DNA of 64,000 bases. Source: Shewanella psychromarinicola. GTDB taxonomy: Bacteria > Pseudomonadota > Gammaproteobacteria > Enterobacterales > Shewanellaceae. The DNA lies in assembly GCF_003855155.1 (NCBI RefSeq), contig NZ_CP034073.1, positions 4,526,001-4,590,000 on the forward strand, given 5' to 3'. The notes under the pieces were generated by a model, which saw nothing but the letters and a program-made list of their open reading frames with translations, did no database searches and had not been told where the DNA came from. The position numbers and the translations under genes were made by a program. Positions 53,396 through 55,406 of the stretch are shown here, one piece after another (the first letter of the stretch is position 1; each line of letters opens with the position of its first letter).

Positions 53396-53856
53396 CTTCA
53401 AACCTAACTTGTACGATGACCTGAATCACCAATAGATTCAGGTTCTGGCAAAGCGGGTGGCTGGGCATCTTCATAAGGTTTTGGCGGTGTGATCTCGCCG
53501 GCGCTTAAAATCTCTTCAATAAGCGGAATTAGTCGTTGTAAAGTTTTATCTTTTCGAAATGCTTCCCTACATGCAATACGCACTTCTCGGTCGGGCTGTT
53601 TAGGGTGATTACTTGCCACCTTAAATGCCGCAGGCACAACGGTATCAAACTTAATGATGTCAGCTATATCATATACAAACGAAAGAGGTTTACCTGAATG
53701 TAAAAAACCAATAGCTGGAGCATAACCCGCAGCTAAAATTGCAGCTTCTGTTACGCCATATAAACACGATGTTGCAGAACTTATACATTGATTAATTACA
53801 TCTCCTGCCTGCCAATCTTTTGGGTTATAACGTCTTCCGCGCCATTCAATATTATA

Positions 53857-54829
53857 CATGCCTATGCACTTGGCTCAGTAAGAATGTATTGGCGTGTGAA
53901 TTATTGCCAAATTTAACAATCTGTTAGGTATTTCTCTTTCCATTTTTCTACGATTGAACCGATAACAGAACTCACTCAGGTATTCTTGCAGGTACTTTCC
54001 TGAAACACCATGAAATGTCCCAAGTAAAAATGCCTTTAAGTTACCAATGGCAATATGAACCCAAGGCAGCCATTCATCAACAAGCTCACTGGGGGTAACC
54101 CTCGCTTCATGTTGTTGAGTCTTATCTATAATGTTCAACGCAGGTAAGCCGTCTGTATGCACTTTTTGCTGTCTCGTTAAGTGTTTGGCAACGAACTTTT
54201 CAACACTATCATGGCAAACGCTATTCACAGCCTGCATAGCAATAAATCCAGCTCTTTTTCCTTTGCTTTCAACGGCAACTAAAACAGGTGTTTTACCTTC
54301 TGCTCCACGTCCACGCTTGCCCTTCCTTCTGCCACCCACTAACGCATCATCAATTTCAATGACCCCTGACAGTCTATATAAGCTGTCTCTATGGCCCATA
54401 GCTGTTCTCAGCTTACTTAATATCAAACGTGCCGTTCGCCAATTAACTTCAATGTGCTTACTCAGTCTTAATGCTGAAATACTGCCCTTATCTGAGCCTA
54501 AAAAGTAGATAGCCCAAAACCACTTAGTGATAGGAATACGGCTACCGTGGAATAATGTGTCTGCTGTGACCGATGTTTGTTTATGACATTGACTGCATTC
54601 ATATACATTGCGGGTTGTAAGCTCATAGGCATGCTCACAAGAGCATCTAGGGCAAACAAAACCATTAGGCCATCTCATTTTCTTAATGTGATTTAAGCAA
54701 TCAGTTTCAGAGCTGAATTCACGTTGCCATTCAAAAAACTCGTTTCAGGCATTTTCATAGCAGATCTCACTTCTAGTCTTGATTTATACTATAAGAATAG
54801 GCCAAAACTGAGTCAGATGCATAGGCATG
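53857..54829 (-). mobile_element. IS1595-like insertion sequence in cas1
   Basis: 973 bp. The ends are inverted: both start CATGCCTATGCA and share a further CTCAGT block. ATATTATA flanks it on each side (53849-53856 and 54830-54837), a perfect 8-bp target duplication, as expected for IS1595. This makes the insertion a single simple event. Confidence 0.93.
53875..54758 (-). pseudogene. IS1595-family transposase, probable 1-base frameshift
   Basis: From MRWPNGFVCPRC (54678) on, 267 residues are open: zinc ribbon (CPRC...CSQC), DDALVGGRRKGKRGRGAEGK, HTDGLPALN and a C-terminal GTFHGVSGKYLQEYLSEFCY. The family normally starts upstream with a segment like FFEWQREFSSETDCLNHIKK, which is present in the DNA in the same frame as the rest. 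Its ATG (54752 or 54758) is one base out of frame, because the A-run at 54733-54738 (plus strand) has six bases where seven would restore M-P-E-T-S-F-F-E-W. So the transposase seems inactivated. Confidence 0.75.
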
Positions 54830-55406
54830 ATATTATATTGCTTAGCGAGTAGCTCATAGGTTTTACGAACACGAGCCCCTTCAATCCCTCGAAGCTGATC
54901 AACACTTCTTCGTTCTGGTGCAGCTTCGCCAAAACGCAGCTCAAACATTTTACGAACCACTTTTAAGCGAAGTGCTTCATCGAGGGCTAGCTTGGCTTGA
55001 TATAATAACTTGTCTGACCGAGCGCCTCCGGGCTGACCAACAGAATAAAGTCTTACCCCAGCCTCTTCGACCCAAATTAGCAGCGTACCGGTTGTTGCTG
55101 CGAGTTTTACTGCTGCGTGGCTTATCCGTGTGCCGGGCTCAAGTAAAATACACACTACAGAGCCTACAGGTATATGCATACGCTCGCCGTTCACCTCATC
55201 AATGACAACAAATGCACCATCACGAACATCTATCCGGCCCATGGCTACAAAAATCATCGAGTTTCGGTCTTTGATTGGGATAGGTTTTAACGGAAGAAAA
55301 GCCATTATCTCAAGTCGCTTTGATGAAAAATATAAATATCTGTGTCTATTGAAGCTTCGCTTACGACCATAACAGTTCCTTTGTTTTTTTGTGAAATAGT
55401 GTCAAT

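Follow-up and report, generated by a model that had tools for sequence, protein, structure and literature searches.

The type I-E CRISPR–Cas locus of Shewanella psychromarinicola probably stores an immune memory to which nothing new can be added and part of which may be silenced, while its Cascade and Cas3 proteins would still be usable. An insertion sequence has split cas1, and two others have entered the CRISPR array. Spacer acquisition has very probably been lost, judging from the genome sequence, because a search of the complete 5.13-Mb genome for Cas1 finds nothing beyond the two cas1 halves. The original prediction, made from this stretch of DNA, was of a frozen memory in which crRNAs are made and used but no spacers are gained; the loss of acquisition stands, given a single split cas1 that is unbroken in relatives, whereas the use of crRNAs is weakened as a claim by the elements in the array. 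The locus lies in a 64,000-nucleotide stretch of contig NZ_CP034073.1 (assembly GCF_003855155.1, positions 4,526,001 to 4,590,000), which we call the window and within which all positions are counted; the genome is a single contig of 5,134,849 bases and is 100% complete.

Organization of the type I-E locus

On the minus strand, the genes run in the order cas3, cas6e, cse2, cas7e, cas5e, cas8e, cas1, cas2, leader and array. The effector genes comprise cas3 with HD and helicase domains (59630..62041; PRK09694, 972 bits), cas6e (59068..59664; TIGR01907), cse2, encoding Cas11e (58633..59052; PADLOC Cas11e, E 1.8e-20), cas7e (57558..58583; TIGR01869), cas5e (56863..57519; TIGR01868) and cas8e, also known as cse1 (55407..56876; PF09481 and PADLOC Cas8e). 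These six and the intact cas2e (53087..53401; PF09707/TIGR01873) are full-length open reading frames assigned to type I-E families, cse2 through PADLOC only and with no accepted match in Pfam or NCBIfam, in agreement with the original prediction that the interference genes and cas2 look intact. With all six effector genes present, 29-nt repeats, 32-nt spacers and an AAG-type protospacer motif, the system belongs to type I-E. Its adaptation module is not intact: cas2e is whole, cas1e is split and the genome carries no other cas1. The leader (53011..53086, minus strand), between cas2 and the first repeat, contains a GGTAGA motif common to the leaders of 7 of 9 relatives and has the 3′ end TTAGA, found likewise in 4 of 9 (both counted by eye).

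The type I-E system of Escherichia coli has a 29-nt repeat, 32-nt spacers and an AAG/ATG motif, all of which are shared by the system described here, as are Cas1e and Cas2e; the effector gene order differs from the canonical one of E. coli. Canonical-order loci also occur within the genus (L082, L084 and, only in part, L083), and their effectors are 24–48% identical to those in the window where matched. The N-terminal half of Cas1, in comparison, is 81–91% identical to the Cas1 of the same three loci, a disparity that points to separate histories for the adaptation module and the effector module. A variant type I-E system in Vibrio halioticoli NBRC 102217 has been grouped, in a survey of Vibrio, with that of Photobacterium profundum SS9 in Cas8e clade VI (PMC6360697). 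Gene order in the V. halioticoli locus (L049) matches that of the window, and its Cas8e is 65% identical, but its cas1 is unbroken. In the Marisediminitalea aggregata locus, which is of the same variant, a 275-aa protein with a KilA-N domain is encoded between cas8e and cas1 (L050:11482-12309). Elsewhere in the window, the open reading frame at 42937-44052 appears by eye to join an N-acetyltransferase-like part to a peptidase-C39-like part.

Interruption of cas1e by an IS1595-family element

The cas1e gene is interrupted by an IS1595-family element of 973 bp (53857..54829, minus strand), with one gene fragment on either side and a perfect 8-bp target-site duplication, ATATTATA, flanking it (53849..53856 and 54830..54837). 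An IS1595-like element with such a duplication had been read from the letters alone, and the family assignment now rests on the transposase (NF033547, E 4.7e-59; PF12762; PF12760), which combines a DDE and a zinc ribbon domain, along with the terminal inverted repeats and the length of the duplication. The boundaries of the element are firm, since perfect 8-bp repeats flank all 14 complete copies in the genome, although the first base of the element deviates in two of them. The cas1 copy has no near-identical sibling in the genome: 14 alignment columns differ from the nearest one, and three differences are private to it. An insertion sequence with its target duplication thus lies within the open reading frame of a cas gene that is unbroken in relatives, as in other cas genes inactivated by such elements.

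The N-terminal fragment (54784..55305, minus strand; 173 aa) covers positions 2–155 of the 269 in the NCBIfam cas1_ECOLI model and ends in a short tail derived from the element, while the C-terminal fragment (53404..53859, minus strand; 151 aa) covers positions 152–268 of the 269-position Cas1e model. The break corresponds to residue 156 of E. coli Cas1 in an alignment with the PDB structure. A conserved Glu (GIEG motif) lies on the N-terminal fragment, and a conserved His (HSGK) and Asp (YDIAD, KFD) on the C-terminal one; we take these residues, from the E. coli enzyme, to be catalytic. The fragment positions and the structural alignment therefore confirm that the gene was cut between the catalytic Glu and the His and Asp residues. 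Equally accurate was the observation that the C-terminal fragment gains an ATG exactly at the element end (53859-53857), for these are the final three bases of the element and they stand in frame.

That start codon raises the question of a naturally split but working Cas1e, in which the fragments would reassemble and adaptation would continue under transposon-controlled expression, the C-terminal half being made by re-initiation after the transposase stop. Re-initiation is possible because the ATG shares the transposase frame and follows its TGA stop by 15 nt. Both halves are also free of stops and carry few private replacements, and the cut falls at a position that varies among relatives (YN/YA/YG/YD-I/V). 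The ATG, however, belongs to the element: it reads outward at the right end in 14 of the 14 complete copies and at the left end in 12, so that an in-frame ATG is a one-in-three accident at any insertion. It is moreover preceded by a weak ribosome-binding site, with a predicted energy of −2.4 kcal/mol against −9.1 kcal/mol for cas8e (native cas1, itself also weak, −2.7; cas2, −3.4; cas7e, −4.9 kcal/mol). The catalytic residues would reside on different chains, and a private G80E replacement falls at a column that is invariant in 9 of 9 relatives. No functional split Cas1 appeared among the papers listed in our literature search, which does not itself prove absence from print. We consider a working split enzyme highly improbable.

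The insertion might otherwise serve as a reversible switch, precise excision restoring cas1 in part of the population. The 8-bp duplication is perfect and intact, and a transposase acting in trans could come from 8 of the 14 complete copies, whose frames are 294 aa long. The transposase frame of the cas1 copy itself (53875-54678), by contrast, is only 267 aa long and lacks the N-terminal part, a shortening absent from the original prediction, and precise excision of such elements is rare. A switch of this kind is extremely improbable.

A single cas1 in the genome and unbroken relatives

A PF01867 search of the complete genome returned the two halves and no second cas1 of any type; the same search was positive in 9 of 14 control genomes. 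A spare copy elsewhere in the genome, for which the original prediction had asked to look, was thus not found. Across 97 Shewanella genomes, including this one, some match to the Cas1e model was found in 15 and a full-length match above the cut-off in five. In all ten distinct related loci where both halves matched (L046–L050, L052, L082–L084 and L086, with L085 duplicating L047), the matched cas1 stretches are contiguous; L053 and L054, which stop short of cas1, and L051 fall outside this comparison.

Each cas1 fragment was also searched against 5.8 billion proteins, giving 930 and 4360 matches, and the best 120 for each were considered. No sister isolate with the same break was found among them, the closest being 79% identical for the C-terminal half and 96% for the N-terminal half. 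The latter protein (P0121) continues past the break point and is therefore not broken there, which rules it out as the same break in a sister strain. Shortened proteins do occur in these lists. Seven of the best 120 N-side proteins end within 5 residues of the break (P0132, P0138, P0141, P0142, P0203, P0210 and P0224), and four of the best 120 on the C side start exactly at it (P0062, P0080, P0095 and P0117). The former are 76–85% identical and the latter 65–72%, and they thus represent other lineages. To the eye, the tails of P0132 and P0203 resemble frameshifts. In relatives, valine or isoleucine occupies the residue at which the C-side proteins start, so these starts may stem from use of an alternative start codon where a contig was cut. 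While proteins of at most 85% identity that stop or start at the break could be read in favour of a split Cas1e, they may be frameshifts, contig ends or alternative starts, and the length limits of the search bias the lists; we do not count them as evidence of a recurrent natural split.

Two further insertions in the CRISPR array

The array (47209..53010, minus strand) comprises 61 repeats, each of 29 nt, with 60 spacers between them, and runs leftwards from the leader. The repeats are identical in 58 of 61 cases, the others being one cut by an IS3-family element and two with a single change. No second array with the same repeat was found, all 60 pattern matches in the genome falling within these coordinates. 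An IS5-family element lies within spacer 52 (51626..52475, plus strand) and an IS3-family element within repeat 45 (49903..51158, minus strand). Both insertions look recent, since 7 and 9 other genomic copies, respectively, score the same at 100% identity. The earlier account of damage to the locus was correct for the insertion in cas1 but incomplete, as it lacked both of these elements. Counted from the leader, eight contiguous spacers are followed by the IS5-family element in the ninth, then by seven spacers, the IS3-family element and 44 spacers. Only 8 of the 60 spacers are therefore contiguous with the leader and 44 lie beyond both elements, such that the making of all crRNAs is not assured; the spacers other than the leader-contiguous eight are uncertain, as spacer 52 is cut and 51 stand behind one or two elements.

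The array may also have been rearranged. No 3-bp target duplication flanks the IS3-family copy, the bordering triplets being GCC and AAC, whereas 8 of its 10 complete sibling copies have one, and its right junction in repeat 45 is without part of the repeat. Recombination between element copies may have removed or rearranged array spacers. Spacer 22 (48519-48550) closely resembles the interrupted spacer 52 (51608-51625 and 52480-52493), with 16 of 18 and 14 of 14 bases the same in its two parts, and spacers 10 and 11, as well as 34 and 35, are exact tandem duplicates.

Three insertions at one locus may instead reflect decay of the whole system, with adaptation and interference both effectively lost and the intact effectors persisting as young leftovers. 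Elements of three families whose insertions start within 4 kb of each other would be the visible start of such decay, the two array elements together sever 44 of 60 spacers from the leader, and CRISPR loss driven by insertion sequences is documented (PMC10359306). The genome, however, holds 34 complete copies of the IS3, IS5 and IS1595 families, and triples within 15 kb occur at three places, two of them away from this locus, against a uniform expectation of 0.14. Clustering of these elements is thus a feature of the genome, of which the CRISPR locus is one instance; a special excess of insertions here is rejected, and the cluster by itself is no proof of relaxed selection at the locus. As described below, the six effector frames are moreover full length and conserved about as in relatives. 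We regard decay of the entire locus as unlikely and retain the reading in which memory persists without updating.

Conservation of effector and adaptation proteins

Private replacements were counted at columns invariant in five relatives for the effectors, and in comparison with nine relatives for Cas1 and Cas2. The effectors have few: 5/293 in Cas3, 5/76 in Cas6e, 0/58 in Cse2, 0/177 in Cas7e, 4/117 in Cas5e and 9/239 in Cas8e, all within or below the relatives' own range. Cas1 has 2/96 in the N-terminal half and 1/73 in the C-terminal half (3/169 together), and Cas2 has 2/46. With so few replacements and no stops in either half, the loss of cas1 is recent or the halves are still constrained. 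Polarized synonymous and replacement changes, counted to probe for relaxed selection on the halves, number 4/3 versus 5/0 on the S. algicola branch for the N-terminal half of cas1, 3/2 versus 4/3 for the C-terminal half and 3/6 versus 0/2 for cas2, which are too few changes for a decision. Scans for promoters and terminators stayed at background, with 10 and 5 found against 11.4 and 5.2 expected.

The Cas7e of S. algicola (L047:2988-4160) is 390 aa long and has a divergent, longer middle compared with the 341 aa of the protein in the window; that of a MAG locus (L053:4003-5166) likewise aligns over 388 columns. The middle segment looks like an alternative version swapped by recombination.

Spacer targets in Shewanella genomes and viruses

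Targets of the 59 uninterrupted spacers were sought across 97 Shewanella genomes, followed by base-by-base comparison with 17 candidate loci (12 and 5). Spacers 1, 4, 6, 7 and 46 match five other Shewanella genomes at six places with 3–5 mismatches in 32 positions. The adjoining motif is AAG at five of these places (spacers 1, 6, 6, 7 and 46) and ATG at one (spacer 4), and these type I-E motifs beside matched Shewanella DNA indicate that the array recorded real invaders. The best shuffled-spacer control had 9 mismatches, a rough yardstick only, as the loci had been preselected for a match. The two targets of spacer 6 within the genus fall in phage tail tape-measure genes. Spacers 1 and 4 have theirs in open reading frames that match families of phage proteins, namely RusA-like resolvase and HNH endonuclease, and spacer 7 in an open reading frame with no such match. 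The motif and first 14 bases of spacer 6 are furthermore found in 7 viral contigs, three of which match the remainder with 3–5 mismatches in all.

This tally of genus targets is a lower bound, since no more than 3 to 8 candidates were scored in each genome. The remaining 11 of 17 candidate loci have more than 5 mismatches and were left out of the count, among them matches in two genomes each of spacer 36, with 6 mismatches and no AAG, and of spacer 49, with 8 mismatches; spacer 44 has candidate places in four genomes, outside the 17 loci compared. A search of the whole array against a phage collection gave four phage records and no convincing full protospacer. The best, Shewanella phage 3/49, shares a 24-nt block with spacer 54 but has 7 mismatches over the 32 positions of the whole spacer, of which six fall at the seed end, and lacks an AAG. 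The array matched 991 records in a plasmid collection, and the 40 listed are repeat-like or resemble insertion sequences. Of six single-spacer scans of viral contigs, four were empty and another gave one contig without the spacer at 8 or fewer mismatches; spacer 6 alone held.

Four of the five target-matched spacers sit at the old, leader-distal end of the array and none among the eight adjacent to the leader, for which no confirmed target was found in the 97 genus genomes or in the phage and viral-contig searches. Apart from the interrupted spacer 52, each of the other 59 spacers is without a convincing self-target among the matches listed outside the array, the best of which score 33.7 and 31.9 bits under thresholds that differ among searches. 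Self-targeting as the reason for cas1 loss was set aside accordingly, there being no convincing host match among those listed for these 59 spacers.

A memory that may no longer be updated

An IS1595-family element transposed into cas1e and parted the half carrying the catalytic Glu from the half carrying the His and Asp. In the course of events that we consider probable, no functional Cas1–Cas2 integrase would form and no new spacers would be gained, and cas2, downstream of the insertion, would be useless without Cas1. The genes for Cascade and Cas3 lie upstream of the break and should be spared by it; their products could still be made, process the array transcript and interfere with invaders. 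A supply of crRNAs would be most likely for the eight leader-contiguous spacers, whereas the remainder would need read-through or a transcript from the IS3-family copy. This copy could drive the distal 44 spacers, a possibility suggested by the orientation of the genes, as the IS3 transposase genes point the same way as the array. Polarity of the three insertions could, on the other hand, silence cas2 or most of the array.

Natural insertions in cas genes have been catalogued on a large scale, one method recovering 28 and a second recovering 163 across 57 genera and 20 families of insertion sequences (PMC10359306, Nat Commun 2023). The present case resembles those in having an element with a target-site duplication within a cas gene and in the inactivation of a CRISPR function. 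It differs from the worked example of that study, which breaks the interference gene cas7, in that an adaptation gene has been hit and two further elements lie in the array. The main text of that study names neither IS1595 nor Shewanella, and the case may be present in its supplementary lists. The kind of event is already known, the loss of CRISPR functions through insertion sequences being documented, and the general picture is unchanged.

The locus is a clean natural example: a single transposition has apparently separated adaptation from interference, the complete genome has no spare cas1, and two insertions that look recent have cut the memory array as well. It allows one to ask whether a CRISPR system that no longer learns is kept for the spacers it has stored, and whether the spacers behind the insertion sequences are still expressed.
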